DNA of 33,329 bases, from positions 1 through 33,329 of IMG/VR virus record IMGVR_UViG_3300043775_002731, one strand, 5' to 3'. Source of the stretch: a virus. Below the pieces are notes generated by a model. That model was given only the letters and a program-made list of their open reading frames with translations. It ran no database searches and was not told the DNA's origin. Both the position numbers and the translations under genes were made by a program. Shown here piece by piece: positions 11,807 through 31,704 of this stretch (position 1 is its first letter; each line of letters starts with the position of its first letter).

Positions 11807-11807
11807 A

Positions 11808-15212: not shown

Positions 15213-15245
15213 ACCAAACCAAAAATACACAACACAAATAATACT

Positions 15246-16001: not shown

Positions 16002-16006
16002 ACACA

Positions 16007-18260: not shown

Positions 18261-18457
18261 CGAAAACAAAGCCAAAAAAACGCAAGCCCCCGCAATGGAA
18301 AGGGAACCCGGACATCCCCGGTTGGTATGTCGTGTTCCAACGAGGGCGGGGAGTAGACGTGCTCTTCTGGGGCGGCGTGGACTGCCCCGTCTTCGAGAAG
18401 TTCTCCGAGACTGAATCTCTTTACTTCGGACCTTTCCGCTTGCCCTTCGCTGTATGA
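18257..18457 (+). CDS. Small basic hypothetical protein
   Basis: A 66-residue protein starting MTKTKPKKRKPPQWKG. The start is chosen at 18257 because it gives the ATGA overlap with the polymerase stop; a longer frame from 18194 is a shadow. The N-terminus is Lys/Arg-rich. The rest, PGWYVVFQRGRGVDVLFWGG and YFGPFRLPF, resembles small strand-rich phage proteins that begin with a PGWY motif. Function unknown. It is translationally coupled both ways, overlapping the primase start by 4 bases. Confidence 0.65.
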   Translation: MTKTKPKKRKPPQWKGNPDIPGWYVVFQRGRGVDVLFWGGVDCPVFEKFSETESLYFGPFRLPFAV

Positions 18458-20655
18458 TTTATCTCGGCCTTAAAAATCTCGCTTCGCAAGAAGTCCGCAC
18501 TTTCTCAAACCCTCTGCAAGAGAACGTCCGAGTTCAGCCCAAGGAGCCAACAGGTATGGACAAGGAGGCAAGACGCAAGTGGCTCTCCGATTCATCCACC
18601 GACACCTGTGTTTTTTCCCTCTGGGAAGGTTTAAACACAAGTAATCGCATCAACGCAAAGGCCGAGAACCCGCCGTGGAAGATGCACGGACTGGTCGTCG
18701 ATTACGACGCCCCTTCCCCCGGCAACCTCCAGCAAATCCGCGCCAATGTGGAGCAGATTCTCAAAGACACGCCCGTCTTGCTCCCTCAGTGGGGGGTTAT
18801 CACTCCGAGCGGCAACCACCGACTCGTATGGGAGTTTGAATCCCCGCTCAATGTGGGGGACTCCGGAGACGCTTTTATTCTGGAAACGCTGGAGGCGCTG
18901 AAAAAACTCCTCAAGCTTCCCTTGTTGCTGGCTGGTCTGGACGAAGCGGCTTACAAGAAGCCCTCCACCTACTACGACATTGGTGGAATATGGGAGCGAT
19001 TCAATGCTGACCCTCTCCCATGCTCGGAAGTTCAAGGCGTCTTCTTCAAAGCCGTCAAAACAGTTTCTAAGGGGAAAGCGCCAAAAGGGTCCACGGAAAT
19101 CCCCATGGATTTGGTCTTCAAAGAAATCGAGGCGAAGTTCCCGGGCAAGTGGCCCAAAGATGTCCCATTTGAGGATGGCTGCTTGGGACCCGCCGTCTGG
19201 CATCCCGACGCAAAGAACCAGAAGACGACGGTTTACAGACCGTGGGGAATTTACTGCTTCAGCGCCGAGGACAGGCTGTTCAAATCCTACGCCGAGATTC
19301 TGGGTAAGGATTTCACACGCAAGTTCGAGGAGAACAAAATCGGAGCCGCCACAGAAGCCATCTACTACATCCCCCGCGTAGGCTACTACCGCAAATGGCC
19401 CGATGGGGCTTGGAGAGCGCAGCCGAAGGATGACTTGATCCTTTATCTCGCTGGGGCTCAGGGGTTGAGCCGCGCCAAGGGGCAAGGAAACAGCCCTTCA
19501 GAAGTTGAAAGTGCGCTACTACATATTCAACAAAGCCGAGTTCTCGACGGAGCCGTTCCTGTTGTCTACGACAACCGCGAGACCCTCCACATCGCGGGCA
19601 GGCGCTTCCTTAATCTGGCACGGGTGAAAGTGCTTGAGCCGGACACCACAACGCCAAACCCCCAGTGGGGCCAAGGGTTCCCATGGATCGCGGCGTGGAT
19701 GGGGTCCATGTTCACGCCCAAAAAGCAGCTTGTCTACTTGTTGGCTTGGTTGAAACTTTTTTATGAAGGAGCCCGTAATGGCTCCCTCAATCGAGGACAT
19801 GCGGTGTTCATGGTTGGAGGGACCAACCGAGGGAAAACGCTTATGAACGCTTTTTGGATTCCTCTTCTTATGGGCGGGGGCTCTGAAGCCGGGGACTTCC
19901 TCGTAGGTGGGGAGTCGTTCTGCAAGGAGCTCTTGGAGGTTGGTCACTGGCACATTGACGACTCTTTGGCTGCGAGTGACCGAATCCAGCACCAGAAATT
20001 CTCGGAGCGCGTCAAACGACTCATCGCTAACCCGATGGTCGCCTACCACCCCAAGTTCGTAGACCGCCAGATGGTCCCGTTCAACGGGCGGCTCATGGTT
20101 ACATTAAACGAAGACCCGATAAGCCTGCTGATGATACCGGACTTGGACCGGAACATCGAAGACAAGCTCATGGTGTTCGGGCTGAACTCTAAACCATTTG
20201 TGTTCCAAGGAAACGCCACCACTGAGCGCACTTTGCGTCAGGAAAGTCCTTTTTTCTTAAACTGGCTACTCAACTGGAGGCCCTTGAAGAGTTTAGTCAA
20301 CACGAACCACCGCTGGGGGATGCAAAACTACATCCATCCGGTTGTCCGCCGAGAAGCTGTTGCAAACTCCTACGACTCAGACCTCTCAGGCGTTTTGGAC
20401 ATTCTTTGGGAGACCGATAACGACTTGGTCGAACTGGCCGCGAAGAAGGAGCCGTGGGTGGGCACTGCGGCGGGCCTCACCAGCATCATTAACTCACACC
20501 CATCCGTGCGCGGGTTAGTCCACGCTATGACTGTGCGCTCCATAGGTATGCGCTTATCAAAACTGGCAAAAACCTCTGGCACGGGCGTCAAAGTCGTTCC
20601 GAGTCATTCAAAAGCAAAAACAGAATCCACAAAATACGCAATACACCATAGATGA
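18454..20655 (+). CDS. Primase-helicase (SF3/D5-like ATPase domain)
   Basis: A 733-residue protein. The N-terminal ~200 residues have HGLVVDYDAPSPG (D83, D85) and GVITPSGNHRLVWEFES (H122, R123), the arrangement seen in archaeo-eukaryotic-type primase or related phage N-terminal domains. The C-terminal part is a helicase: Walker A GGTNRGKT (455-462), HWHIDDSLAAS (Walker B-like acidic pair, about 497-507), then MVTLNEDP as a sensor-like segment (about 549-556). Together these would open and prime the phage origin for the family A polymerase. Primase activity is inferred; the helicase motifs are visible. ATGA overlaps link it to both neighbours. Confidence 0.8.
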   Translation: MIYLGLKNLASQEVRTFSNPLQENVRVQPKEPTGMDKEARRKWLSDSSTDTCVFSLWEGLNTSNRINAKAENPPWKMHGLVVDYDAPSPGNLQQIRANVEQILKDTPVLLPQWGVITPSGNHRLVWEFESPLNVGDSGDAFILETLEALKKLLKLPLLLAGLDEAAYKKPSTYYDIGGIWERFNADPLPCSEVQGVFFKAVKTVSKGKAPKGSTEIPMDLVFKEIEAKFPGKWPKDVPFEDGCLGPAVWHPDAKNQKTTVYRPWGIYCFSAEDRLFKSYAEILGKDFTRKFEENKIGAATEAIYYIPRVGYYRKWPDGAWRAQPKDDLILYLAGAQGLSRAKGQGNSPSEVESALLHIQQSRVLDGAVPVVYDNRETLHIAGRRFLNLARVKVLEPDTTTPNPQWGQGFPWIAAWMGSMFTPKKQLVYLLAWLKLFYEGARNGSLNRGHAVFMVGGTNRGKTLMNAFWIPLLMGGGSEAGDFLVGGESFCKELLEVGHWHIDDSLAASDRIQHQKFSERVKRLIANPMVAYHPKFVDRQMVPFNGRLMVTLNEDPISLLMIPDLDRNIEDKLMVFGLNSKPFVFQGNATTERTLRQESPFFLNWLLNWRPLKSLVNTNHRWGMQNYIHPVVRREAVANSYDSDLSGVLDILWETDNDLVELAAKKEPWVGTAAGLTSIINSHPSVRGLVHAMTVRSIGMRLSKLAKTSGTGVKVVPSHSKAKTESTKYAIHHR

Positions 20656-21125
20656 AAACCCTAATACAAGAAACCATAGAAGCGCACCTCGCAGATGACG
20701 AGGAGATTGTTCTCGCGGACGGCTTTGAAAAAGCCTTCGTCGGGATAGCGCGACAGTTCGGAAAACCCTTCGCCGTGTACGACCGGAGCCTCTGTTTAAT
20801 GGCTTTGACGGAGCAAGAAATGAGCAACGAAGAGGCGGAGGAATACATGGCATTCAACACCGAAGGGGCGTGGGTGGGGGAGAACACCCCCGCGTTTATG
20901 GAATTCGCGCCGACCGACGAAGAGAAACGCATTGAAAAATTCGTCACGGCCCTCATCCACCTAACTAAGACGGCGGAGCTTTTGGACGAAAAGACGCAGC
21001 TTCTGGAAAGCTTTGTGAGTGCCCTCGCTTATTTTTTAAAGGGCTACAATGAAATGGAGGGAATTCCCCACCTCCCGGGGGCACGAGACGCCCTTGAAGC
21101 CGTAGAATCCTTTTTAAAAGACTGA
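20652..21125 (+). CDS. Conserved-looking phage hypothetical protein
   Basis: A 157-residue protein. Residues 20-85 read ADGFEKAFVGIARQFGKPFA then VYDRSLCL, then EEAEEYMAFNTEGAWVGENTP. This pattern (DGFE.AF.G...QF..P.AVYD ... EEAEEY..FN..GAW.GE.TP) is found in many phage and plasmid proteins of unknown function. The C-terminal half is a separate helical segment. It starts inside the primase stop (ATGA) and ends one base over the next gene. No function is known to me. Confidence 0.75.
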   Translation: MKTLIQETIEAHLADDEEIVLADGFEKAFVGIARQFGKPFAVYDRSLCLMALTEQEMSNEEAEEYMAFNTEGAWVGENTPAFMEFAPTDEEKRIEKFVTALIHLTKTAELLDEKTQLLESFVSALAYFLKGYNEMEGIPHLPGARDALEAVESFLKD

Positions 21126-21364
21126 TGAAAAAAGTAAGTGAAGACTTAGAGGTCATGTTTACCCGGGAGGTGCTGGCGGCAATGATAAAGTGCGCGTACA
21201 TAGACGCTAAGCACGTTTCGGAAAATATGGACCCAGACATCCAAAGAGAGGCGGAGGTCAACCAAGAGTCGGCGTTAGCTTTTTTCTCAAGCCGCTTCTT
21301 CAGGGAATACTGTGAGATATTTAATCTACCCGCCAACTCGATTTATATAAACGCTTTAAGATGA
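21125..21364 (+). CDS. Small hypothetical protein
   Basis: A 79-residue helical protein starting MKKVSEDLEVMFTREVLAAM. It has no cysteine motif or membrane segment. Its start overlaps the previous stop by one base (TGATG) and its stop overlaps the next start by ATGA. The regular coupling supports it being a true gene. Function unknown. Confidence 0.65.
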   Translation: MKKVSEDLEVMFTREVLAAMIKCAYIDAKHVSENMDPDIQREAEVNQESALAFFSSRFFREYCEIFNLPANSIYINALR

Positions 21365-21558
21365 ACAAAGAATACCCAAAATGGGCGTGCTGGGACTGTG
21401 GAACCAAGCACGGCGCAAACAAGAAGCAAGACCGCATATCCTCTTGGCACTATGGAAAATGTGATGTCTGTGACGAAAATAAAAATGTTACGGAGCCCCG
21501 CGACTTTGGCCATTTTCCTAACTGGTTCAACCCAAAGGGGAAAAAAGTATGGGCATGA
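21361..21558 (+). CDS. Small zinc-ribbon-like protein
   Basis: A 65-residue protein starting MNKEYPKWACWDCGTKHG. Two CxxC pairs, CWDC near residues 10-13 and CDVC near 34-37, are spaced like a four-cysteine zinc ribbon. Such small phage zinc proteins often bind nucleic acid or RNA polymerase, but no target can be read. ATGA overlaps join it to the genes on both sides. Confidence 0.7.
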   Translation: MNKEYPKWACWDCGTKHGANKKQDRISSWHYGKCDVCDENKNVTEPRDFGHFPNWFNPKGKKVWA

Positions 21559-21944
21559 GTGAATCACTGCGCCAACTGGAACAAGAACGCGACGAGGCGA
21601 AAAAGCAACTATCTTCAACCCATAGATGGATTGAGCGGAATCATGCAGACGGGTTCATCGATTCGCTAAGTTATTCACAGAACTTAGAAAGAGTCGCGGA
21701 TAATTGGTATGGTCGCCTTGACATTGTGGAGCGCGAGCGAGACGAAGCGCGACAGGCATTTGTCATTGCAACAGATCAAATGGTTTTAGCGCAGTGCAAA
21801 TTGCGAGAGGCAAACACATTGGCCGAGAAAGCCAATGAACTCGTCGCTCGTTGGGACCAGCCATCGTGGAAAGACACCGCTCCGACTGCGGGGTTCATCA
21901 ACGCACTCCGAGATGCGGTAAAAGCCTACGAGGAGAAGCCATGA
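21555..21944 (+). CDS. Coiled-coil hypothetical protein
   Basis: A 129-residue protein starting MSESLRQLEQERDEAKKQL. The ATG at 21555 is preferred to the one at 21549 because it gives the operon's usual ATGA overlap with the previous stop. Two heptad-like segments, about 3-22 and 57-90 (VERERDEARQAFVIATDQMV), suggest a coiled coil. The C-terminus (AGFINALRDAVKAYEEKP) is a motif common in small phage proteins with a 'NALRxAVxxYE' ending. Function unknown. Confidence 0.68.
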   Translation: MSESLRQLEQERDEAKKQLSSTHRWIERNHADGFIDSLSYSQNLERVADNWYGRLDIVERERDEARQAFVIATDQMVLAQCKLREANTLAEKANELVARWDQPSWKDTAPTAGFINALRDAVKAYEEKP

Positions 21945-22435
21945 GTGAAGAAGAATTTAACGAAGCTGTGCGGCTGAACTTCCACGATCTCGTCAGAACC
22001 GCTTCGTCCGTGCTGCGCTGCGAAGCGGCAGCCGAGGATGCCGTGCAACAGACGCTTGTGCGCGTCTGGAAGAATATTGAAGCCTTCGACCCGAAGAGGG
22101 GCTCCATTGAAGCACTACTCCATGTCGCAGTGAAACGCCAAGCGTTGGATCACCTGACGTCCCTGAAGCGCAGGATCGCGGTTATGGAAGGTTTCTGGGG
22201 CGAATACATTACCGGGGAGCGTCCTAAAAGAGATGACCCACGGATGAACCGATTGATAGCCGCATTGGGGAAGCTCCCCGATAAGCCCCGCTCCCTCATC
22301 CAAAAACGCTTTTTCGAGGGCAAGGCTGTTGCGGTTATAGCGAATGAGGTGGGGCTGTCGAAAAGCGCCACGCAAGCCCGCATCCGCCGAGCCGAAGGAG
22401 CCCTCCGCCGCCTCGCACGAAAAGAGCCCTTATGA
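21941..22435 (+). CDS. ECF-type RNA polymerase sigma factor
   Basis: A 164-residue protein; the start at 21941 gives an ATGA overlap with the preceding gene. Region 2 spans about 10-75 (EDAVQQTLVRVWKNIEAFDP then RGSIEALLHVAVKRQALDHL), including the -10 recognition helix area. Region 4 is about 105-160 (LPDKPRSLIQKRFFEGKAVA, VGLSKSATQARIRRAEGALR), with the -35 helix-turn-helix. No region 1 or 3 is present, as in ECF factors. It would direct host RNA polymerase to phage promoters; late genes are a natural target but this is inference. No anti-sigma gene is beside it. Confidence 0.85.
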   Translation: MSEEEFNEAVRLNFHDLVRTASSVLRCEAAAEDAVQQTLVRVWKNIEAFDPKRGSIEALLHVAVKRQALDHLTSLKRRIAVMEGFWGEYITGERPKRDDPRMNRLIAALGKLPDKPRSLIQKRFFEGKAVAVIANEVGLSKSATQARIRRAEGALRRLARKEPL

Positions 22436-22629
22436 TACACGAATTTAGGGACCCCATCCCAGTAATAACCCCACTGGGAGGGGGATACGCAATATATGTA
22501 CGAGATTCCGGAGCTTTTGAAAACGACGTCTGGACTGTTGTTTTGGAAGACGGAGGAGAAGTCAGGCACTTCAGGACAGATCAGATAAAACTCTACAAAA
22601 ACGCAACCTTCGACATAGAACCAAAATGA
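22432..22629 (+). CDS. Small hypothetical protein
   Basis: A 65-residue protein starting MIHEFRDPIPVITPLGGGYA. It is strand-rich (WTVVLEDGGEVRHFRTDQIK), with no motif for an enzyme. ATGA overlaps join it to sigma and to the following gene. The opening FxxPIP pattern also occurs at the start of the next protein (FAGPIPRHLYVWVD), suggesting the two share a domain type. Function unknown. Confidence 0.65.
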   Translation: MIHEFRDPIPVITPLGGGYAIYVRDSGAFENDVWTVVLEDGGEVRHFRTDQIKLYKNATFDIEPK

Positions 22630-23168
22630 AGCATACATTCGCAGGCCCAATACCGAGACACCTTTACGTATGGGTTGACTCAAACTTCACACACAAAGAA
22701 CCCTGCGGGCTGGTCCGCGCTGTCTGGTTCGGCATGAACTCTTACCCCGGACGGGCGTGGGGTTTAAACATAATGTTTGAAAATGGAGCGATCTACCGCA
22801 ACCTGCCGCCGCACGCGATTACATTTTCCCCCGTCGTCCTCGTAGACTGGCCAGTAAACAAGGCGCAGTTCTGGGATTGCTACGGGTGGGAGTGGACAGC
22901 GCTCGTTTACCCATACCTAGACGGCTTGGCCTGCCGAACGATATGGGGTGATGAGGGGCAGTATTTGTTCTCAGTTGCCCCGGTGGGGGACGCTTTTTCA
23001 GCCTACCCTGAACAGGCAAAAGAGTTCCTTTTCATCCAGTTATCCAATAATCGGCTGACCATTCAACCCACGAATCATGTGTTCATGGAAGAAAAGTCGT
23101 TCACTCTGCCAAAAACATCACCCACGCCAAGGCTTGTCAGGCAGGACAAAGTGTGGCACTGCGAATAA
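22626..23168 (+). CDS. Hypothetical protein
   Basis: A 180-residue protein starting MKHTFAGPIPRHLYVWVDSN. It has many aromatics (WDCYGWEWTALVYPYLDGLA) and only a few cysteines, and no membrane helix or known motif. The N-terminal segment up to about 75 (GLNIMFENGAIYRNLPPHAI) resembles the preceding small protein in layout. A GGTTTAAAC motif lies within the gene at 22761. Position in the operon is the only functional hint. Confidence 0.65.
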   Translation: MKHTFAGPIPRHLYVWVDSNFTHKEPCGLVRAVWFGMNSYPGRAWGLNIMFENGAIYRNLPPHAITFSPVVLVDWPVNKAQFWDCYGWEWTALVYPYLDGLACRTIWGDEGQYLFSVAPVGDAFSAYPEQAKEFLFIQLSNNRLTIQPTNHVFMEEKSFTLPKTSPTPRLVRQDKVWHCE

Positions 23169-23172
23169 ACCT

Positions 23173-23394
23173 ATGATTGTTCCTAAACACGTATACTCAC
23201 ACTCAGCTATAACCCGCGTGTTCGCTGGGCAGGAGGAGAAATACCCAACCACCAAAGCCAAACTGGAGCATAGTCGAAAGTGCCTCGCCGTATGCGTCCA
23301 AAACAACTGGAGAACGTCGATGGTGCTGTGGGGAGAGACGGTGGTAGCCCTCGAAAACGCAATTTTCGCTGAAACAGTGCATTTCCAAGCCTAA
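23173..23394 (+). CDS. Small hypothetical protein
   Basis: A 73-residue protein with the chosen start ATG at 23173 (MIVPKHVYSHSAITRVFAGQ), 4 bases after the previous stop. A longer frame from 23077 overlaps the previous gene and is less likely. It contains no recognised motif. A helical middle (KLEHSRKCLAVCVQNNWRTS) is followed by a hydrophobic strand. Function unknown. Confidence 0.55.
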   Translation: MIVPKHVYSHSAITRVFAGQEEKYPTTKAKLEHSRKCLAVCVQNNWRTSMVLWGETVVALENAIFAETVHFQA

Positions 23395-23931
23395 ATGATT
23401 GTCTCAAACTCAGGAACATTGGCAGCGGTCGTCCGTCAGGGCGATTATCTGGTCTTTAAAAGCGAAAAATGGGGTGTCGCCGTGGAATACAGCCCCGACG
23501 CCGAGCCCGGGGCCCCGGTTGTCGGTGGTTTTGCTGCCCAAAACGGGCGAGCTACCTACTTTAGCGCCGAAGAAACCTCCAAATTGCTACAAAACCACCC
23601 CCTAACGGTGGAGGATGAGCTGGTTTTGGCGCTCGAAATAGGCTCCAAGCGCCAAAGACCGAAATCGACCGTGGATGTGATTATGGGGGCAATCCGAATA
23701 TACGCGGACTCCGGATACGAGACCACCGCGCAGGCCCCGGTTTGGGATGGAAGGCTCACGAGGTTCCACAAAGAGGTTGTCGGCCCTCTGACCGGGTTGA
23801 CCTACACCCGGTTCCTTGCGAAAACCTACAAACGCATTCCAGCCATGCTACCGGGAGTCGAAATGTTCTCGTTGAACTGCCAACATTGGATCAGGGTTGA
23901 CTGGCCGAGGGTGGAGTCTCGCGGAAACTAA
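23395..23931 (+). CDS. Hypothetical protein, last gene of the operon
   Basis: A 178-residue protein starting MIVSNSGTLAAVVRQGDYLV, immediately after the previous stop with no gap. The N-terminal half is strand-rich; residues about 60-95 (ETSKLLQNHPLTVEDELVLA) are helical. No membrane segment or catalytic motif is visible. It is the last gene before the strong terminator at 23952-23995. I do not recognise the family. Confidence 0.6.
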   Translation: MIVSNSGTLAAVVRQGDYLVFKSEKWGVAVEYSPDAEPGAPVVGGFAAQNGRATYFSAEETSKLLQNHPLTVEDELVLALEIGSKRQRPKSTVDVIMGAIRIYADSGYETTAQAPVWDGRLTRFHKEVVGPLTGLTYTRFLAKTYKRIPAMLPGVEMFSLNCQHWIRVDWPRVESRGN

Positions 23932-23951
23932 GTTAAAAGGGGAACCAGCTA

Positions 23952-23995
23952 CAGGCTCACAGTGAGACCACTCTCTGTGAGCCTGGCCTTTTTAG
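23952..23995 (+). terminator. Strong intrinsic terminator of the replication operon
   Basis: CAGGCTCACAG (23952-23962) pairs perfectly with CTGTGAGCCTG (23975-23985), an 11-bp stem with a 12-base loop, followed by GCCTTTTTAG. This is a classic rho-independent terminator and closes the plus-strand operon ending at 23931. Confidence 0.88.
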
Positions 23996-24053
23996 GGGGT
24001 CGGGCTGGTTTTTGCCGTATAGCAGACTTTATGTATAGGCAGACCGGAAAAAT

Positions 24054-24357
24054 TAGGGAACTCCCGAAGTTTTAGGGAACCATTAGGGAACCTAATTTTC
24101 AGCGTTAGCGCATGCCTTAGAGAACTTTCTACGTTTTTTAGGGAACTAGGGAACTAGGGAACCTTTAAAAAACCTTACGCTATACACAGCCCACACGGTG
24201 GGGAACAGGCTACTGGCTATATATAATATATATTTTATTTATAATTTAAAATATGGTTCCCTAGTTCCCTATTCCCTCACAGCGCTACTGTTTTTCAACA
24301 GTTTACAAAATAGGGGACTTTTTCGCGAGGTTCCCTAGTCCCCTAACTAGTTCCCTA
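24054..24357. repeat. TAGGGAAC iteron array around an AT-rich core, candidate origin
   Basis: Exact TAGGGAAC occurs at 24054, 24073, 24084, 24139, 24147 and 24155 (the last three in tandem). The inverted form GTTCCCTA occurs at 24256, 24264, 24330 and 24350. Several one-mismatch copies lie among them. The two halves flank an AT-rich tract at about 24218-24254. Iterons around an AT-rich unwinding region are the form of replication origins and partition sites. No gene is visible in 23996-24521. The GC-rich CCCCCGGGGG (24406-24415) lies just to the right. Confidence 0.6.
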
Positions 24358-24521
24358 CCCGCTCCCCCCTCCTGTTTACCGGATTTTTTTAGTGTGCCGC
24401 CCCGCCCCCCGGGGGCCCTGAAATCGGATTATTTTTTTACCTCCGATCATATACGTATGTCGCTCGGCGCAAAGGGTGGCAGGGGAGACCCCCGCCGTCG
24501 CAACCCATTGGAATAAGGATG

Positions 24522-24543
24522 CTTATCCGGAATTCCGGACAAG
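24522..24543. repeat. Palindrome copy 1 (CTTATCCGGAATTCCGGACAAG)
   Basis: A member of the TTATCCGGAATTCCGGATAA family, with one arm mismatch (GGACAAG). It lies between the iteron array and the stop of the HTH gene at 24586. The remaining 24544-24585 shows no further element. Confidence 0.7.
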
Positions 24544-24585
24544 CCGAGCAGGTTGTTGACCCGTTAGGACTATTTACACAAGGCG

Positions 24586-25080
24586 CTACTGCTCTGTGAG
24601 TTCCAACACCTCTGCCCGCCGCTCCGGTAGCTGTCCGGTAGACAGGATGCCCAGCGAGATGAGGGGCGCTGCTCTCTTGGCCTCGTTGCGGTTCAACACA
24701 TTACGGCTCATCTCCACCAGCTTGGCCACCTTGTCGGCCTTGGTAACTATATCCTGTGGAGAGAGTTGCTTGAGGATCATGGGCACAGAGCAGGCGAAGC
24801 GGTGCATGGCCTCGTCGTATTCTACCTCACGCTGCGAGCGAGGCATCCCCTCCATCCTCTTAACCAGTTGATCCAGAACGGGATCGACCACGATCCTCTG
24901 CTCCTGCACGCGCACCTGTCTTATAACATCCGGAATGACCCACTTGCGATCCTTCGCCCACCCGTGGATCACTTCCTTCGCAAGGCCCATGCGGCGAGCC
25001 GTTTCCGCAAGGGTGCATCCCTCGTCTTCCATCATTGCCCTTGCCTTCTCTTTAATCTCCTCGGGATGCGATGCAGCCAT
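24586..25080 (-). CDS. Helix-turn-helix protein resembling terminase small subunit
   Basis: A 164-residue protein starting MAASHPEEIKEKARAMMEDE. Residues about 20-45 (CTLAETARRMGLAKEVIHGW then AKDRKW) form the HTH of the kind at the start of small terminase subunits, which recognise phage DNA for packaging. The rest is helical with RSQREVEYDEAMHRF and a charged middle. Only the HTH supports a name; a transcription regulator is the alternative. It is alone on the minus strand, 14 kb from large terminase, with a degenerate palindrome 10-30 bases upstream of its start. Confidence 0.5.
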   Translation of the reverse strand: MAASHPEEIKEKARAMMEDEGCTLAETARRMGLAKEVIHGWAKDRKWVIPDVIRQVRVQEQRIVVDPVLDQLVKRMEGMPRSQREVEYDEAMHRFACSVPMILKQLSPQDIVTKADKVAKLVEMSRNVLNRNEAKRAAPLISLGILSTGQLPERRAEVLELTEQ

Positions 25081-25090
25081 GCACCCATGA

Positions 25091-25110
25091 TATCCGGAAT
25101 CGTGGATAAG
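25091..25110. repeat. Degenerate palindrome copy upstream of the HTH gene
   Basis: TATCCGGAATCGTGGATAAG keeps the TATCC/GGATA arms and the GAATCG centre found at 28883 and 33299, but has lost one base of symmetry. It lies just upstream of the minus-strand start at 25080, unlike the other copies that follow genes. Confidence 0.6.
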
Positions 25111-25541
25111 TCAAATCCCTCCCCCTCTTATACAGAGTCGTCTCCATACTAATTCTCAGCCCCCATGCAATAGAGAATGCCGACAGGGCAACCTGAACGG
25201 CACTGATCTAACGAATGCAGGGAGGACAAGTGGATGCGAGTGGCAAGACGCCATGCACGGGATGCCGTGCAGGATGCCGAACCTCTCCCCGAGCCGTGCG
25301 GATGGCCGTCCTTTAATCGGTCTTTGATAATTTAGTGGTCGAGTATCTTCTGGCTTACGCCAACCCCGCCTCCGGAAAGGCCGAGGGGAGGATGCAAGAA
25401 TCGCGGATGTTGGAGGACGGGATGGCACATAGTGTTGGAGTGCTACCAGTCAGCCAGTCAGCCCGCCCCTGCGACGAACAGGGTCTTGCCTCTTCCCTTG
25501 CAGTCGTAACACCTCTCCGAACGGGACGCATCGCCCCGCTC

Positions 25542-25570
25542 CTCAGCATCGCTGAGCCTTGCGGAAAGTG
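25542..25570. repeat. Direct repeat copy A (CTCAGCATCGCTGAG hairpin)
   Basis: CTCAGCATCGCTGAG is itself a 6-bp inverted repeat with a 3-base loop, followed by CCTTGCGGAAAGTG. The same block recurs 102 bases on. Confidence 0.6.
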
Positions 25571-25643
25571 AGGGACTCGATCCGAAACGCCATCGTGACT
25601 TTACGAGCCGTAGCCATGTAGCCCGAGTAGAACCTTCCCGCAC

Positions 25644-25672
25644 CTCAGCATCGCTGAGCATCGCGGAGAGTG
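25644..25672. repeat. Direct repeat copy B (CTCAGCATCGCTGAG hairpin)
   Basis: Second copy of the block at 25542, here followed by CATCGCGGAGAGTG, three differences in the tail. The conserved hairpin suggests a repeated RNA or protein-binding element. Confidence 0.6.
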
Positions 25673-25778
25673 GAACTCCAAGGGATTTATTATAGAACCG
25701 AGAGGTTAGCATGGGGAGAGGTGATCGGAGAGTCGATACCAGCGGCGCGGAATGCAAGGGATCACTACCCTGCACTGG

Positions 25779-25810
25779 CGGGAGGCTAAAGCTGAAAGAA
25801 GCCCCTCCCG
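25779..25810. other. Stable hairpin in the non-coding stretch
   Basis: CGGGAGG (25779-25785) pairs with CCTCCCG (25804-25810), with a further CT/AG pairing inside after a bulge. No T-run follows on either strand, so it is not a plain terminator. Confidence 0.5.
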
Positions 25811-25969
25811 AACGAGCGGATTAAGGACATTGGAAGCGTCAAACTCTACGGAGCGCGTCTTCCTCCGGCGATTAAAAGCCCCGCAATAAATCAGTGAGCG
25901 AGAGCAGAGCAGGTTAGCACCTGTGAAGATTGGTTTTCTGAATCTGCTCTCGGCTAAAAAACTTTCACG

Positions 25970-25997
25970 CCGCTTATCCGGAATTCCGGATAAGCGG
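25970..25997. repeat. Perfect 28-bp palindrome copy
   Basis: CCGCTTATCCGGAA and its exact reverse complement form a fully symmetric site centred between 25983 and 25984, with the outer arms extended as CCGC/GCGG. It lies about 95 bases upstream of the first gene of the right-hand gene train. Confidence 0.85.
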
Positions 25998-26091
25998 TGA
26001 CTAATGCAACCATGAAGCCATGTGGCTTTCATGCCTGTCCCAAGTCAGGAGCAAATGCAGAGGGGTCAATCAAATACAAACCAATACCAAT

Positions 26092-26538
26092 ATGAAAAAC
26101 GCAACATCCATCATCGCTTCCTTCGCAATCGTCAACGGCAACAACGCCCCCTTCCTCTCCAAGTGCGTTGAATACGCTCAACTCTCCTCGAAACGTGAGG
26201 TTCTCGGGGACACTCTCAAAGCCGAGTTCGCTGCCATACTCGCCACTGAAAACGTCAAGGAAGCCGTTGCGGCCAAGCAACTCGCAACCTCTCTCGCAGA
26301 TGCTTTGGAAGGCGTCGTAAAAAGCCCCGCCAAACGTGCCTCCGAAATCCTCTGTGCCCTCGGCATCCGCCAACGTGCCGAGAAGACCAAGGACGAGGGC
26401 GACGACGAACTCTCCAAGGAGCTTGCCCCTGTGATCGAAGCCCTCAAAGCGCTCGCCAAGGAGCAAGCCGCCGACAAAGCCGTCAACGCTCTTCGCCGCG
26501 CTTATCTCTCCCTCCAAGGCGAGAACAAAGCCGAGTAA
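26092..26538 (+). CDS. Ala-rich helical hypothetical protein
   Basis: A 148-residue protein starting MKNATSIIASFAIVNGNNAP. The ATG at 26092 follows the A/C-rich leader (ACCAATACCAAT) typical here; the longer frame from 26020 runs through non-coding DNA. It is rich in Ala, Lys and Glu and almost wholly helical (EAVAAKQLATSLADALEGVV; KELAPVIEALKALAKEQAAD). No motif is recognised. It opens the plus-strand train of small genes that ends with the AAA+/VWA pair. Confidence 0.65.
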   Translation: MKNATSIIASFAIVNGNNAPFLSKCVEYAQLSSKREVLGDTLKAEFAAILATENVKEAVAAKQLATSLADALEGVVKSPAKRASEILCALGIRQRAEKTKDEGDDELSKELAPVIEALKALAKEQAADKAVNALRRAYLSLQGENKAE

Positions 26539-26569
26539 GGTTTAATTGAAACGCAACGCCAACCAACAC

Positions 26570-26761
26570 ATGACATATCAAACACGCTTGAAGCTACGGA
26601 GAGTGGTCTCCGTAGCCTTCGCCATCACATGGTGCGGGGTTTACCCCGCTTCATACCTCGCCATCTGGTTCTTCAACCTCTCGGTTGGAGACGCCCTCGC
26701 AGTCCTCGCCGCATCAAGCGCCCTCGGCCTCGTTGCCGGACTGCTCAACGACCACCTCTAA
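26570..26761 (+). CDS. Small membrane protein with two predicted helices
   Basis: A 63-residue protein. The ATG at 26570 (MTYQTRLKLRRVVS) follows CCAACCAACAC, the local leader type, and is preferred to the upstream TTG at 26546. A basic N-terminus is followed by a hydrophobic helix at about 12-36 (VVSVAFAITWCGVYPASYLA) and another at about 40-58 (GDALAVLAASSALGLVAGLL). It probably sits in the inner membrane with both ends in the cytoplasm. Function unknown; holin-like size, but no lysis genes are beside it. Confidence 0.6.
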   Translation: MTYQTRLKLRRVVSVAFAITWCGVYPASYLAIWFFNLSVGDALAVLAASSALGLVAGLLNDHL

Positions 26762-26763
26762 TC

Positions 26764-26816
26764 CTTATCCGGAATTCCGGATAGCTCCTGCGGAGCCACG
26801 GGCTTCGCCGGATAAG
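26764..26816. repeat. Compound palindrome with nested hairpin
   Basis: CTTATCCGG (26764-26772) can pair either with the neighbouring CCGGATAG, giving the standard 18-bp core, or with a second CCGGATAAG at 26808-26816. Between them GCTCC TGC GGAGC (26084-offset 26784-26796) makes an inner hairpin. It directly follows the small membrane protein stop. Confidence 0.75.
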
Positions 26817-26836
26817 CAAACCAAACCAACACACCT

Positions 26837-27124
26837 ATGAATCAATTATACGCAACTCTAATCCGCTTCCGTGAAAACGAATACAAGAAAGACCACGACA
26901 TCTACGCTCTGCCGCCATCGCAGTGGGCCGCTGAGCGGGGTGCAACCCACTCCCTCTGGTGCGGAGACGGGCATGGCCGTGGAACTCGCCCCGTCATCAT
27001 CAAGAAAACCCGCATTTATGTCGGGGTTGATGAAACAATCGGCGGCGGTATCGAATGGCAAACTTGGACAGGGCGATTCCTGCATGAGTTTCCCGAGTGC
27101 CCCGTCCCTTTCACCCCGTTCTGA
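26837..27124 (+). CDS. Hypothetical protein
   Basis: A 95-residue protein starting MNQLYATLIRFRENEYKKDH. It is rich in aromatic and charged residues (SQWAAERGATHSLWCGDGHG; EWQTWTGRFLHEFPECPVPF), suggesting a compact fold. There are two Cys but no CxxC. No family is recognised. The leader is CCAAACCAACACACCT, with no Shine-Dalgarno, and a palindrome follows 3 bases after its stop. Confidence 0.6.
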   Translation: MNQLYATLIRFRENEYKKDHDIYALPPSQWAAERGATHSLWCGDGHGRGTRPVIIKKTRIYVGVDETIGGGIEWQTWTGRFLHEFPECPVPFTPF

Positions 27125-27127
27125 ATC

Positions 27128-27149
27128 CTTATCCGGAATTCCGGATAAG
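27128..27149. repeat. Perfect 22-bp palindrome copy
   Basis: CTTATCCGGAA plus its reverse complement, centred at 27138/27139, 3 bases after the stop of the preceding gene and followed by an A/C-rich leader. Confidence 0.85.
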
Positions 27150-27181
27150 CAAACCAAACCAACAACCAAACCAATACACCT

Positions 27182-27421
27182 ATGAGCATAAAACTAACCC
27201 CCGCCACGCTGGACGGCAAGTCCATCGCCTACTCCAACATCACCGAGTTCCTTGTCCAAGTAGGCAGGGGGCGCGGGGCTTACTCAACCCGATACAAGTT
27301 CGTCGGAGACTTGGCGCAAGCCGTCTTCTACTACCGCTGTATCAATATCGGCAACGGCTACAAGAAACGGCTGTTCGTCCCCTCGTTTAACAAGCCAACC
27401 CTTGCCCGATATATCTCATAA
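27182..27421 (+). CDS. Small hypothetical protein
   Basis: A 79-residue protein starting MSIKLTPATLDGKSIAYSNI. It is strand-rich and basic (EFLVQVGRGRGAYSTRYKFV; YYRCINIGNGYKKRLFVPSF). No motif is seen. Its stop overlaps the next start (TAATG), the only direct overlap in the right-hand gene train. Function unknown. Confidence 0.6.
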   Translation: MSIKLTPATLDGKSIAYSNITEFLVQVGRGRGAYSTRYKFVGDLAQAVFYYRCINIGNGYKKRLFVPSFNKPTLARYIS

Positions 27422-27654
27422 TGAGCAACCCAACCTGCAACCCTGCAACCAAGAAGCCAAGCCCCTGCTTCCAACATTATGTTGGTGTCGCCAACATGAT
27501 CCACTATGACGGGGCGCTTGGCTACGAAGCATTTATATGCCGCCAGTGCGGAGTATACTTCGACTACACCGAAGGGGAACACCCCGCTGATGAGTGGAGC
27601 CTCTCGTTTATCCCGAAGGAAAACATCGAACACTTTCCGGTTTGTTCTGTCTGA
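27421..27654 (+). CDS. Small cysteine-containing hypothetical protein
   Basis: A 77-residue protein starting MSNPTCNPATKKPSPCFQHY. A CRQC pair (FICRQCGVYFDYTEGEHPAD) and other cysteines at the ends (CNP, PCF, PVCSV) could bind zinc, but only one clear CxxC is present. It is translationally linked to the gene before it. Function unknown. Confidence 0.58.
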   Translation: MSNPTCNPATKKPSPCFQHYVGVANMIHYDGALGYEAFICRQCGVYFDYTEGEHPADEWSLSFIPKENIEHFPVCSV

Positions 27655-27674
27655 ACATACCAGATTCAACCCTG

Positions 27675-27694
27675 TTATCCGGAATTCCGGATAG
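27675..27694. repeat. Palindrome copy
   Basis: TATCCGGAATTCCGGATA core with short outer arms, 20 bases after the stop of the preceding gene. Confidence 0.85.
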
Positions 27695-27727
27695 CACAAC
27701 CCAACCAACCAACACACCAACACACCA

Positions 27728-27979
27728 ATGAGTAATACAACCGACAACCCAGCAGTTACATTCCACAACGACATCCAAGCCCTTCGAGCCAAGTATCCAA
27801 TGGTCTATCTGGAGGCATGGACGCCAGACGATTTCGTCGTAGATGAAGACGGCAACTCCCCCGCCCCCGTGGATTGGAACCACCCGTTCCATGAGATCAC
27901 AGCCGACAACCTGCATCGCCACTTCGACGCCGAGATTGGCACGAACTGGGATCGCATCAAGGAAGAGTCAGTCTCCTAA
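27728..27979 (+). CDS. Small hypothetical protein
   Basis: An 83-residue acidic protein starting MSNTTDNPAVTFHNDIQALR. Short strand and helix elements alternate (YPMVYLEAWTPDDFVVDEDG; NPFHEITADNLHRHFDAEIG-like end). No known motif. The leader is ACACCAACACACCA, and a palindrome follows one base after the stop. Confidence 0.58.
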   Translation: MSNTTDNPAVTFHNDIQALRAKYPMVYLEAWTPDDFVVDEDGNSPAPVDWNHPFHEITADNLHRHFDAEIGTNWDRIKEESVS

Positions 27980-27980
27980 C

Positions 27981-28001
27981 CTTATCCGGAATTCCGGATA
28001 G
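27981..28001. repeat. Palindrome copy
   Basis: CTTATCCGGAATTCCGGATAG begins one base after the preceding stop and is followed by the shared A/C-rich leader before the next gene. Confidence 0.85.
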
Positions 28002-28016
28002 CCCAAGCCAAACCAA

Positions 28017-28045
28017 CAACCCAACCATAGAAAACCAATACAATG
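28017..28045 (+). promoter_or_regulatory. Shared leader, copy 1
   Basis: CAACCCAACCATAGAAAACC then AATACAATG. Nearly identical to the leaders at 28272 and 28960, which end in the start codon. There is no Shine-Dalgarno. It may be a repeated translation-initiation region. Confidence 0.6.
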
Positions 28046-28255
28046 AGCAAACCCACCAACACCTACACCGTCGTCGTTCAAGCCCCCGCCGTGAACGAGT
28101 GGACATACGAAGTCAAAGCCTCCTCGAAAGAGGACGCCGAGAAACTCATCCAGCAAGGGCTGGATGGTGACATCGAACTCCCCGACCCCGTCAACTTCGA
28201 GCAGGGCAACGAGGTCGATGGCGCACTGACCATCGTGGACTCCTACGAAGGCTAA
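28043..28255 (+). CDS. Small acidic protein of common phage type
   Basis: A 70-residue protein. The form NTYTVVVQAPAVNEWTYEVK then ASSKEDAEKLIQ is the beta-alpha pattern of small DUF-type proteins often found in phages and plasmids, where YTVxV...A.S.EEA shows a strand, a strand and a helix. The C-terminus is very acidic (FEQGNEVDGALTIVDSYEG). Function unknown. No palindrome separates it from the next gene. Confidence 0.6.
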   Translation: MSKPTNTYTVVVQAPAVNEWTYEVKASSKEDAEKLIQQGLDGDIELPDPVNFEQGNEVDGALTIVDSYEG

Positions 28256-28271
28256 CCCAACCCAACAACAA

Positions 28272-28301
28272 CAACCCAACCATAGAAAAACCAATACAAT
28301 G
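28272..28301 (+). promoter_or_regulatory. Shared leader, copy 2
   Basis: The same leader as copy 1 with one extra A in the A-run (CATAGAAAAACC then AATACAATG), ending in the start codon of the 28299 gene. Confidence 0.6.
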
Positions 28302-28868
28302 AGCAAACAAAACACCACCACCATCGTCCCCGCCGCTTCAACCCGTGCGGTGACTCCCAAACCCACCAAGTCCGAGATCATCGAAGCGTTGACCCGCCTC
28401 AAGGTCGAGGAGATCAAGGCTGAGAATGACATCCGCGAAGCGGCAATCGCCGCGCAGCAAGAGGTCGTTAAGAAGCTGGCGCTCCAGCACATTGACACCT
28501 CTTGGGCAAAGTTTCCGGAGACCTTCTCGGTAGAGAACGCCGACGTCAGCACCGGATGCAATGAGAGCCATGTGGAGTTCGCCATCCGCATCAGCACCAA
28601 CCCCAAGGACACTTACGTCTACAACAACTCCTTGATTGTTGAAGCGCCAACAGAGCTCAAGAAAGCTCTTGAGAAACTGCATAAACTCCCGAACGCCCGA
28701 AATGTCCACAGCTACGGGATCGATGAAATCCGCAAGGAAATCCGCAAGTCTCTCACCCATGATGCGGCGGGACGAGTGACCCGATTGCTGGAGGATACCG
28801 CATCCCGTGCCGCCTTATCCGACCTGTTGAAGGTCGTCGAAGCGGGCGCGGAGAAGCGGGTCAACTAA
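28299..28868 (+). CDS. Hypothetical protein
   Basis: A 189-residue protein starting MSKQNTTTIVPAASTRAVTP. A Thr/Ala/Pro-rich start is followed by a helical segment (SEIIEALTRLKVEEIKAEND). The middle is strand-rich (HVEFAIRISTNPKDTYVYNN) and the end helical and basic. No catalytic motif. It is read from the shared leader and followed by a palindrome. Likely part of the same system as the neighbouring genes by context only. Confidence 0.62.
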   Translation: MSKQNTTTIVPAASTRAVTPKPTKSEIIEALTRLKVEEIKAENDIREAAIAAQQEVVKKLALQHIDTSWAKFPETFSVENADVSTGCNESHVEFAIRISTNPKDTYVYNNSLIVEAPTELKKALEKLHKLPNARNVHSYGIDEIRKEIRKSLTHDAAGRVTRLLEDTASRAALSDLLKVVEAGAEKRVN

Positions 28869-28882
28869 CGAACCAACCTCGG

Positions 28883-28912
28883 GGGGCTTATCCGGAATCG
28901 CGGATAAGCCCC
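28883..28912. repeat. Palindrome copy with GAATCG centre and extended arms
   Basis: GGGGCTTATCCG pairs with CGGATAAGCCCC around a GAATCG centre, a 12-bp stem. The copy at 33299 is identical over the whole 30 bases. Confidence 0.88.
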
Positions 28913-28959
28913 AAGCAGGCTTTAAAAGTGTGACAGTGAACAACAACAACAACAACCAA

Positions 28960-28989
28960 CAACCCAACCATAGAAAAACCAATACAATG
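28960..28989 (+). promoter_or_regulatory. Shared leader, copy 3
   Basis: Identical to copy 2 through the start codon, here preceded by a run of CAA triplets (28941-28959). It sets the start of the following gene at 28987. Confidence 0.6.
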
Positions 28990-29928
28990 ACAACCATCGA
29001 CTACACCAAAACCACCAGCACCAACACATTCGACATCGCCCGAGACTGCACCCTCGTTTCCGTAGAGGGGTCGCTCTACCCATGGGCCAAGAAGGATGAG
29101 GTTGCCGCCACCAACGCCGCCTCTGCCGACCACGCTGTGAGCGAACGCTTCACGGCCTATGTCCAACGCCTCAACAAGGAGGATCGCCTGCCCCCGCAAC
29201 AGATTCTCTCCGAGGCCCGCCGCTTCCTTGACTTCCCAACGGGTTTCCCTTGGAAGACAGGGCAGTTCGCCGTCTGCAATACCAAGCTGGACACCACGAT
29301 CTCCAAGCTGGAGGACTTCCGCGCCAAGTTCTACGATGCCGTAGATATTCTGTGCGCTGGGCTCCCTGCTCTGGAGGCTCGTGCCAAGGCCGAGTTGAAC
29401 GGGGCGTTCTCCCGCCTTGGTTTCCCTACGGAAGCCGAGGTTCGTGAACGCTACACCTTCACCATCAAGACGGGGGTCATACCCCATGCCGATGACGTAA
29501 GGCTCAACAACGTGTCGGCCAAAGCCAAGGCGTCCATCGAAGCCAGCATCCGCAAGGAGCAGGCCGAGAAGGTAACGGAGTTGCACCAGCAGGTTGTCGG
29601 CTCCTTGGAGGCGGCACTCAACCGAGTCGTCACCAACCTCACGCAGTTCACCGAGGGCAAGATCACCCGCTTCGAGGATTCCCTTGTCACCAACTTGGAG
29701 TCCCTCATCGAAGCCCTGCCGTCCCTCAATGTGACGCAGGATCGAGCCGTGGATGCCACCATCACCCGCTCCCGCTCCCTTGTAGCCGGACTCCAAAAAG
29801 CCCTGCAAGAGCAGACGCTCCGCGACAAGAAGTCCGAGGCTGGCCCCGCCGTCCGCAAGCAGATCGCCAAGGAGGCTGGGGACATCCTCTCCAAGCTCAA
29901 AGCTGGAGCCGTCAAAGCGGCGGTTTAA
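28987..29928 (+). CDS. Coiled-coil protein, DUF3150-like by context
   Basis: A 313-residue protein whose start at 28987 (MTTIDYTKTTSTNTFDIARD) follows the shared leader; the longer frame from 28930 reads through CAA repeats and is not used. After a short N-terminal part it is helical: IRKEQAEKVTELHQQVVGSL (about 196-216) and GKITRFEDSLVTNLESLIEA (about 232-252) look like coiled coils. It ends in GDILSKLKAGAVKAA. Proteins of similar size and helix content, called DUF3150, sit beside MoxR-type ATPases in phages and mobile elements. The match is by layout and context, not a sequence motif, so it is tentative. Confidence 0.5.
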   Translation: MTTIDYTKTTSTNTFDIARDCTLVSVEGSLYPWAKKDEVAATNAASADHAVSERFTAYVQRLNKEDRLPPQQILSEARRFLDFPTGFPWKTGQFAVCNTKLDTTISKLEDFRAKFYDAVDILCAGLPALEARAKAELNGAFSRLGFPTEAEVRERYTFTIKTGVIPHADDVRLNNVSAKAKASIEASIRKEQAEKVTELHQQVVGSLEAALNRVVTNLTQFTEGKITRFEDSLVTNLESLIEALPSLNVTQDRAVDATITRSRSLVAGLQKALQEQTLRDKKSEAGPAVRKQIAKEAGDILSKLKAGAVKAAV

Positions 29929-29951
29929 GAACCAGTAAACACAAACCCACG

Positions 29952-29979
29952 GGGCTTATCCGAAATTCCGGATAAGCCC
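29952..29979. repeat. Palindrome copy with AAATTC centre
   Basis: GGGCTTATCCG and CGGATAAGCCC flank AAATTC, so the centre lost exact symmetry while the arms remain perfect. Confidence 0.85.
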
Positions 29980-30022
29980 TGCAACCAAGCACCCAACAAC
30001 CCAACCATACCAGCAAACCAAT

Positions 30023-30400
30023 ATGAGCACTCCAACATACCCACTACGTATAGACCACGGCAACTCCAACTTCATCGACTACAAAATCAGTCACGAACTC
30101 CCGTCATTCGACTGCCCTGTGACCGACTCGGTAGCCAACGAACACTCCATTGTCGTTCGGCTCACCTACAACAAAAACCTGAAAAAAGCCTACGGCAGTG
30201 TCACTTATGAGCAGAATGGAGACCACTACGACATCGGTGGAGAACTCAAACTTACTGACGAGCAGTTCTACCGGATCACCAACCACCCTGCCCAACTCCT
30301 CCCCGAGGATAAGCTCGCCACCCTTCGCAGTGTGAAAGGCAGCGTCACCATCAAGGATGGAGTAGCAACCCTACCTGATGGATCACAAGTAACCCTGTAA
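30023..30400 (+). CDS. Hypothetical protein
   Basis: A 125-residue protein starting MSTPTYPLRIDHGNSNFIDY. It is mostly beta strands (SIVVRLTYNKNLKKAYGSVT; GDHYDIGGELKLTDEQFYRI) with an Asp/Gly-rich end (SVTIKDGVATLPDGSQVTL) that resembles a small beta-sandwich. No motif is recognised. It lies between the coiled-coil protein and the AAA+ gene. Confidence 0.58.
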   Translation: MSTPTYPLRIDHGNSNFIDYKISHELPSFDCPVTDSVANEHSIVVRLTYNKNLKKAYGSVTYEQNGDHYDIGGELKLTDEQFYRITNHPAQLLPEDKLATLRSVKGSVTIKDGVATLPDGSQVTL

Positions 30401-30412
30401 CAGCTAACTTTT

Positions 30413-30442
30413 GGGAGGGGTGCAATAGATAACACCCCTCCC
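30413..30442 (+). terminator. GC-rich hairpin after the 125-residue gene
   Basis: GGGAGGGGTG (30413-30422) pairs perfectly with CACCCCTCCC (30433-30442), a 10-bp stem. No T-run follows, so it is only terminator-like. It replaces the usual palindrome at this position. Confidence 0.5.
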
Positions 30443-30488
30443 CTTCAACCAAGCACCCAACAACAGCAGTAACCAAAACAACACCAAT

Positions 30489-31619
30489 ATGAGCACCACA
30501 ACACAACCCAACCAAGCCGTAGCATTCCCCCTCACAACCATCAAGCAGGCCATCGCCGTCTGCTTTACCCCGTCCCTCAACCTCGTCCCCGTCATCTGGG
30601 GGCCGGTGGGCTGGACTAAATCAGCGACCATCAAGAGCATAGCCGATGACCTCGGCCTGCCCCTCCATGATGTCCGCTTGTCGGACAAGGAACCCACCGA
30701 CCTCGGCGGTATTCCATTCCCCGTTGACAAGAAGATCAACGGCAAGGTTGAGAAGGTTCTCACCTACCTCGCCAACTCCCTGCTCCCATGGGCTGAACTA
30801 TACGGAGAGGACTACGAGTGCATCCTCTTCTTCGATGAGGTTGACCGCACCTCGGTTGACGTTCTTAACGTAGCCCTCCAAGTTCTCTTGGATCGCGGCG
30901 TCAACGGACGTAAGCTCTCCAAGGGAACCCACATCGTCTGTGCTGGCAACGGCACAACCGATACTGGCACAACCGAGTTGACCAGTGCCGCCGCTACCCG
31001 CCTCGCCCACCTCTATGTTGAGACGAGCGGAGCACGGGCGCTTGACCACTGGATCGACTGGGCTAACCGCTCCGGTATTGACCCCGCCTTGGTTGGCTAT
31101 GCCCGCTTCCGCCCCGATGTCTTCGGTGGCAAGAAGCAGGTTTACATCGAGCAGCAGAAGCCCAACCCCCGCACCTTTACTTGGGCGGCGGCGGCTCTTG
31201 ATCTTCTCGCTCAACTCCCCTTCGCTCCGGAGGTTGGTGACGCCATCGTGTTCGGCCTCGTTGGTCAAGCCGCTGGCCGTGAATACACCGCATACAGGGA
31301 GCAGTTGAGCAAATGCCCAACCTACGAGAAGGTCGTCAAGTCCCCGAGCACGGCTCCCCTCCCTCCCGCCGAGTCGGTTGGCATCCTGTATGCCCTCGGT
31401 GAATCCTACGCTGTCCGCCTGTTGGATGAATCCCGCACCGAGCGTGGCCTGTCCCCCGAAGTCAACCCCAACGAGACCGAGGCCGTGGCGAATTATTTCG
31501 CCCGCTGTGCTACGGAAATCCCATCGCACAGAGAAGCGGTCGCTTGGTTCTTCCGAGTGGCTGGATCGAAGATTCCCTCCCTCGCTGGACTCCCTGCCTA
31601 CAAGTCGGTCGTAGGCTAA
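30489..31619 (+). CDS. MoxR-type AAA+ ATPase
   Basis: A 376-residue ATPase. Walker A is GPVGWTKS (38-45), where the usual Gly before Lys is Thr; Walker B is CILFFDE (111-117); sensor 1 is HIVCAGN (N154); and LTSAAATRLAHLYVE holds the arginine that pairs with the next subunit (R171). The C-terminal half is a helical lid typical of MoxR. MoxR ATPases work with VWA-domain partners to remodel protein complexes, and such a partner is the next gene. The start is preceded by an A/C-rich leader (AAAACAACACCAAT). The exact target is unknown. Confidence 0.85.
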   Translation: MSTTTQPNQAVAFPLTTIKQAIAVCFTPSLNLVPVIWGPVGWTKSATIKSIADDLGLPLHDVRLSDKEPTDLGGIPFPVDKKINGKVEKVLTYLANSLLPWAELYGEDYECILFFDEVDRTSVDVLNVALQVLLDRGVNGRKLSKGTHIVCAGNGTTDTGTTELTSAAATRLAHLYVETSGARALDHWIDWANRSGIDPALVGYARFRPDVFGGKKQVYIEQQKPNPRTFTWAAAALDLLAQLPFAPEVGDAIVFGLVGQAAGREYTAYREQLSKCPTYEKVVKSPSTAPLPPAESVGILYALGESYAVRLLDESRTERGLSPEVNPNETEAVANYFARCATEIPSHREAVAWFFRVAGSKIPSLAGLPAYKSVVG

Positions 31620-31632
31620 CCAACCCGCCAAC

Positions 31633-31662
31633 GCTGGCTATCCGAAATTCCGGATAGCCAGC
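31633..31662. repeat. Palindrome copy with extended and compensated arms
   Basis: GCTGGCTATCCG pairs with CGGATAGCCAGC around AAATTC. The outer arm differs from the other copies at several places on both sides together, so the pairing is preserved. Confidence 0.88.
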
Positions 31663-31704
31663 AGGTAGCAACTAACTTCAACAACCCACGCAATAGATAC
31701 CAAT

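Follow-up and report, generated by a model that had tools for sequence, protein, structure and literature searches.

A likely replication origin with facing iterons around an AT-rich core, of PICI/SaPI-like layout, in a full-size tailed phage

We analysed a virus record of 33,329 bases, classed as linear (hereafter the window, meaning this whole stretch of DNA), and find that it carries an array of short repeats in two largely opposed groups around an AT-rich core, which is likely to be the replication origin of the phage, opened by a self-loading primase-helicase that the phage itself encodes and organised like the origins of PICI/SaPI elements, here in a full-size phage. This reading is supported by the conservation of the place and layout of the array in relatives, by the easily melted core, by the kind of helicase that the phage encodes and by the presence of the same layout near related helicase genes in other phages.

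Genome setting and architecture of the array

The rightward genes of the window (10520-23931) encode an integrase, a ribbon-helix-helix protein, an HTH protein, a RuvC-like resolvase, an SNF2/DUF2800 fusion, an unknown protein, a family A DNA polymerase (PolA), a primase-helicase, a sigma factor and small proteins. The leftward arm likely carries the genes for a portal and a large terminase (8396-10285), both named from sequence and both lacking a match in PHROGs and Pfam. The array sits between convergent genes, namely the replication operon and an HTH gene at 24586-25080, and, as the initial annotation had it, follows the probable terminator of that operon, a 15-bp inverted repeat with a run of T's. 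The helicase gene ends at 20655 and the first exact iteron begins at 24054, which places them 3.4 kb apart with several genes between. The features to which we refer below are as follows.

10520-11806: integrase gene
12753-15212, plus strand: SNF2-type helicase fused to a DUF2800 exonuclease-like domain
16347-18260, plus strand: family A DNA polymerase (PolA)
18454-20655, plus strand: primase-helicase of D5/DUF5906 type, proposed initiator
23952-23985, plus strand: stem-loop (15-bp inverted repeat) and run of T's, probably terminating the replication operon
24054-24125, plus strand: left outer iterons, TAGGGAAC at 24054, 24073 and 24084, and the one-mismatch copy TAGAGAAC at 24118
24139-24162, plus strand: left inner iterons, a perfect tandem triplet of TAGGGAAC
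24163-24217: spacer, mostly conserved with the relative L005, holding a one-mismatch copy (TGGGGAAC, 24199) that is absent in L005
24218-24257: AT core, the softest 40 bp and probable melting site, nearly the same in L005
24256-24271, minus strand: right inner iterons, a tandem pair of TAGGGAAC
24311-24357: right outer iterons, at 24311 (plus, TAGGGGAC), 24330 (minus), 24338 (minus, TAGGGGAC) and 24350 (minus)
24586-25080, minus strand: gene for an HTH DNA-binding protein, convergent with the operon

The ten-copy array that had been noticed from the sequence alone was borne out by a scan of the 33,329-base window, in which all 10 exact copies of TAGGGAAC fall within 24054-24357, while shuffled windows held a mean of 0.52 copies and none of 100 reached 10. 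Six copies lie on the plus strand to the left (24054, 24073, 24084, 24139, 24147 and 24155, the last three in the perfect tandem) and four on the minus strand to the right (24256, 24264, 24330 and 24350), as had been described. When one mismatch is allowed, four more copies bring the total to 14 in 23930-24420, where approximately 0.18 would be expected per 491 bp from the density elsewhere. Since the added copy at 24311 is on the plus strand within the right half, the two halves are not purely opposed. The AT-rich core was likewise found as claimed: 24216-24254 is 95% A/T, and no other 40 bp in the 33 kb is as unstable as 24218-24257 (-35.2 kcal/mol, against -42.5 for the runner-up and a mean of -58.7, s.d. 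4.0 kcal/mol). The core is off-centre, touching the right inner pair and lying 55 bp from the left inner group, and 93 bp separate the perfect inner tandems. Rfam gave no matches in the window or in its relatives L005 and L011, and blastn of the DNA at 23940-24560 found no match among 50,697 phage records.

The window holds further features on both sides of the array. A sigma-70-like factor gene (21941-22435) lies inside the replication operon, and its product may switch on the right arm. Over 24523-33323, from just right of the array to the end of the window and mostly between right-arm genes, a 20-bp palindrome, TTATCCGGAATTCCGGATAA, has ten sites within three mismatches (chance expectation 0), and a similar dispersed palindrome, built on TAACCGGA, is found at 27222-33486 of the relative G003; these palindromes are possibly operators or promoter elements. 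The gap between array and HTH gene (24430-24560) is conserved in both relatives, with a GGGGAGACCCC core and a CATATA box, and without a match in Rfam; it may encode a small RNA or act in regulation. Further to the right, a MoxR-like ATPase gene followed by a DUF2201 metallopeptidase-like and VWA gene (30489-33285) is kept in G003.

Conservation of the array in relatives

Direct relatives of the window primase-helicase were found in two records only of the viral_contigs set (L005 and L011) and in none of the genome_contigs set. One, L005, is a contig of 25,749 bases whose PolA is 91% identical to that of the window; it keeps the place of the array and, almost letter for letter, its AT core, and its softest 40 bp too lies between the inner groups, with the spacing and the copies of the iterons changed relative to the window (12 within one mismatch, 7 exact). 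The other, L011 or G003, is a contig of 74,189 bases whose primase-helicase is 56% identical to that of the window and which is syntenic with it over the span that begins with the structural genes and ends with the VWA gene; because it bears a 99-base direct terminal repeat, it is probably a complete genome of this lineage. At the syntenic place it has an array of an altered word, GGGGGAAA, of which 11 copies (one mismatch allowed) surround a soft stretch. Thus the place and layout are conserved more than the iteron word itself. Further, the right outer order (plus, minus, minus, minus) is common to all three sequences, and the HTH gene adjoins the array in G003 as well, the sole relative that covers that gene. 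The initial annotation had named loss of the array in close relatives as an outcome that would count against its reading; the array is kept in both relatives that cover the place.

A wider search with PolA brought nine more loci with a homologous primase-helicase, of which eight were tested and one (L017) was cut off. None of the eight, in which PolA is 30-40% identical, has an array directly after the helicase gene at p<=0.005. One of them, L016, shows three TAGTGTCC copies after the gene with no soft core between them and was not counted, and a TTCCAA array in L015 was set aside, as it overlies an open frame and differs in layout. Clusters of short repeats in two orientations were also seen in other PolA contigs, at L051:1-460, L087:100-430, L033:2440-2730 and L095:13822-13934 (words AATGTTCG, TGTCCCAA, GTTAGTAA and GTGGAAACTG), some of them around AT-rich DNA, and these are possibly further origins.

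GC skew, which had been suggested as a check, proved uninformative. The cumulative maximum falls inside the array (24159 in the window, 24790 in G003, 25325 in G001), but the array's own bases contribute to it, as their removal shifts the maxima to 24487 in the window and 25379 in G003, and its sign is that of a terminus by the usual rule, opposite to that of an origin. Moreover, third-position skew in the coding sense is alike in minus-strand genes (-0.127) and left plus-strand genes (-0.094) and differs only in right-arm genes (-0.379), and therefore the skew tracks codon use. We do not take it as evidence either way.

The primase-helicase as candidate initiator

A Walker A and B pair is present in the primase-helicase, which aligns over its length with 12 homologues, each from a PolA locus. 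Its match to Pfam PF19263 (E 0.00098) falls under the Pfam cut-off, and tblastn of the window and L011 proteins gave no match among 50,697 phage records. A structure model of the protein (pLDDT 80.6, pTM 0.54) resembles the C-terminal region of NrS-1 PrimPol (6lrb_C; Z 19.2, 358 residues at an rmsd of 6.5) and, with lower Z scores, both the primase-helicase of SaPI5 (7ola_A; Z 14.6, 351 residues at an rmsd of 6.0) and PriRep1 with DNA (7pds_C; Z 12.2, 288 residues at an rmsd of 4.5). In SaPI and SCCmec helicases of this type, the C-terminal domain is described as recognising iterons just downstream of the helicase's own gene (excerpts of PMC7581432), and PICI origins as having two iteron sets around an AT-rich region, an organisation stated to be found only in PICIs (excerpts of PMC6092414).

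We propose that the primase-helicase (18454-20655) most likely binds the TAGGGAAC iterons, and that the two facing iteron groups would load two opposed helicase rings. The rings would then melt the AT core (24218-24257) ahead of the remaining DNA, and the site would fire, with primers being made and extended by the PolA encoded in the same operon.

The same layout beside helicase genes in other phages

A search with the 16-base pattern TAGGGAACTAGGGAAC brought a different phage contig, L009, in which ten TTAGGGAA-like copies lie directly after a DUF5906-like helicase gene. As L009 was found through its iterons, its array is not an independent discovery; two other contigs that matched the pattern, L007 and L008, look like chance and are without a facing array. 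The helicases of the window and L009 have no direct similarity by BLASTP (E 0.77) and are linked by the PF19263 model only (E 0.00098 vs. 7.8e-6, both under the cut-off).

We then turned to named phages, for which 19 loci (L106-L124) were chosen for variety before their arrays were examined, 17 of them from the 40 listed tblastn matches of the L009 helicase (127 records) and two from PolA matches. Eighteen were tested, with L112 omitted as its D5 gene is on the other strand, and L109 and L118 are near copies. The test covered a 600-bp region spanning the end of the helicase gene at p<=0.005, that is, 1 in 201, the smallest possible value. An array was found directly after the gene in 8 of these 18 phages, whose helicases are all of this broad type (E. 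coli phage 683R1, Mel-JY33, JS26, SS2019XI, AXY1, Vibrio phage 1.017.O, Nsp-JY18 and PibeRecoleta), whereas only 3 of 343 other windows in the same eight loci score as high. The remaining ten (L106, L108, L110, L111, L114, L119-L122 and L124) are without an array at this threshold. The words of the eight arrays differ: AGGTGACG, CCCGGGTC (twice), CCTACGCA, CCCGGATA, AACTAGGA, GTATCCGA and GGTAACAA. For 683R1, the helicase gene and the array are part of an E. coli prophage that also carries DNA polymerase, DUF2800 and DUF2815 genes; a prophage of this type is present in 47 of 5,426 complete E. coli genomes, 43 of them matching over most of the query.

Ten arrays with a directional word (window, L005, L011, L009, 683R1, JS26, SS2019XI, AXY1, Vibrio 1.017.O and PibeRecoleta) were compared by splitting the copies of each at its softest 40 bp and scoring the two nearest on each side; L109 and L118, with a palindromic word, and L016, with three copies, were left out. 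The inner copies face the soft core, with the left two plus and the right two minus, in 9 of the 10, the exception being the Vibrio phage, in which the second right copy exceeds one mismatch. Under random orientation the chance is approximately 6.6e-8, a figure to be read with the partial dependence among the ten arrays in mind. Seven arrays have an inner gap of 71-108 bp; the gap is 60 in SS2019XI, 223 in JS26 and 49 in the window, the last owing to the one-mismatch copy at 24199, which served there as the nearest left copy. A right outer plus followed by minus is seen in six of the ten (window, L005, L011, 683R1, Vibrio and PibeRecoleta), and the mirror order on the left also in six (L005, L009, 683R1, SS2019XI, AXY1 and Vibrio). 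In half of the arrays (window, L005, AXY1, Vibrio and PibeRecoleta) the softest 40 bp is also the softest of the whole locus.

Alternative explanations

The HTH gene beside the array raises the question of a packaging (pac or cos) site, at which the HTH protein, as the small terminase subunit, would bind the repeats to start packaging. The protein has an N-terminal HTH, its L011 homologue weakly matches small terminase subunit PHROGs (best E 0.0038), the gene stays beside the array in G003, and the L009 array is followed, after approximately 1 kb, by genes for a small-terminase-like protein and a large terminase. However, the HTH protein matches regulators and other DNA-binding proteins better (E 5.8e-6 vs. 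0.0038), the likely large terminase gene of the window is 14 kb from the array, and one would not expect a pac site to have facing sets around the softest DNA, while elsewhere the layout follows a helicase gene; we consider packaging improbable. Least probable of all, in our judgement, is that the array is an integrase attachment site (attP) with arm-type repeats, serves partition or is a set of repressor operators. The window does encode an integrase and a ribbon-helix-helix regulator, and arm-type sites, too, consist of short repeats in the two orientations, as in the annotation of P4, but the integrase gene is approximately 12 kb away, and none of the three predicts recurrence beside helicase genes. 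The initial annotation had left the choice between origin and partition site; of the two, the origin has good support from the conserved place and layout, the soft core, the type of helicase and the same layout elsewhere, and the partition site is not supported, as none of three records (the window and two relatives) matches ParB_N (PF02195) or ParA-type AAA_31 (PF13614). As for an operator, the array lies between convergent genes, where no promoter is needed, and a promoter scan of 23800-26100 gave 2 sites vs. 1.7 in shuffles.

The array could also be an origin whose initiator is a host factor, the HTH protein or a small protein of the operon, with the primase-helicase merely recruited. The array adjoins the HTH gene and is 3.4 kb from the helicase gene, and L009 has a near-identical word, yet a helicase without direct BLASTP similarity. 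On the other hand, the modelled fold of the primase-helicase is that of self-loading initiator helicases, and elsewhere arrays sit directly after this kind of gene, which makes a different initiator rather unlikely. The distance from the helicase gene, in place of a position directly after it, also weighs against our own reading of an origin opened by the primase-helicase, as do the absence of an array after the gene, at p<=0.005, in 10 of 18 named phages and in all eight tested homologue loci, and the lack of direct BLASTP similarity between the helicases of the window and L009.

Discussion

Whether these arrays belong to one widespread class of phage origin, in which the layout is fixed and the word free to change, tied to D5/DUF5906 primase-helicases in tailed phages and satellites alike, is in our view evenly balanced. 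The class so conceived would run from outer copies through an inner tandem pair, a soft AT core and a facing inner pair to outer copies that are often plus, minus, minus, and its tailed-phage members would include Casjensviridae, marine Vibrio phages and E. coli prophages. If it is real, the origin described as peculiar to PICIs would be an invention of phages in general: helicase and word would co-evolve, and the geometry by which two opposed rings are loaded would be kept. The results predict where the origin lies in an uncultured phage lineage and offer a recognisable layout by which origins near D5-type helicases may be located whatever the iteron word, and they speak against the PICI-only claim for this organisation as it is worded in the excerpted text (PMC6092414). 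The E. coli prophage with the same helicase type and an array is a test case ready for laboratory work. We found no prior description of this layout in D5/DUF5906 tailed phages in the titles and abstract openings of the open-access papers examined.

Among known systems, the P4 alpha protein with crr and ori is similar in having a primase-helicase and, according to its annotation, 8-bp iterons in both orientations directly downstream of the P4 gene; unlike here, crr consists of two 120-bp direct repeats, both with the order ++--+, and there is a second iteron region, while 23900-25150 of the window holds no long direct repeat of that kind. In SCCmec, the C-terminal domain of the D5-type helicase Cch2 binds direct repeats just downstream of its gene, but the putative origin has three iterons only, and no facing sets are described in the excerpted text (PMC7581432). 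NrS-1 PrimPol offers the closest solved fold for the modelled helicase part (Z 19.2). The origins of PICI/SaPI elements with Rep or Pri-Rep (SaPI5, EcCICFT073) resemble the array in having two sets of short iterons around an AT-rich probable melting site, a comparison that leaves iteron orientation aside (excerpts of PMC6092414), and they too have a D5-type (primase-)helicase as initiator (excerpts of PMC7581432), a role proposed here from the fold match to SaPI5 (Z 14.6) and a weak PF19263 match. Unlike those elements, the present phage is no satellite but a tailed phage of full size that carries structural genes and a PolA of its own: G003 measures 74 kb with its 99-base terminal repeat, and the window has likely terminase and portal genes, named from sequence. 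Further, the PICI/SaPI origin lies immediately 3' of the rep gene, a position also taken by the arrays in other phages of our survey, whereas the array of the window is 3.4 kb away from the helicase gene. Iteron origins and D5-type initiators are thus already known; new are the PICI-like layout in full-size phages, its persistence despite a changing word and, in this lineage, its position away from the helicase gene.
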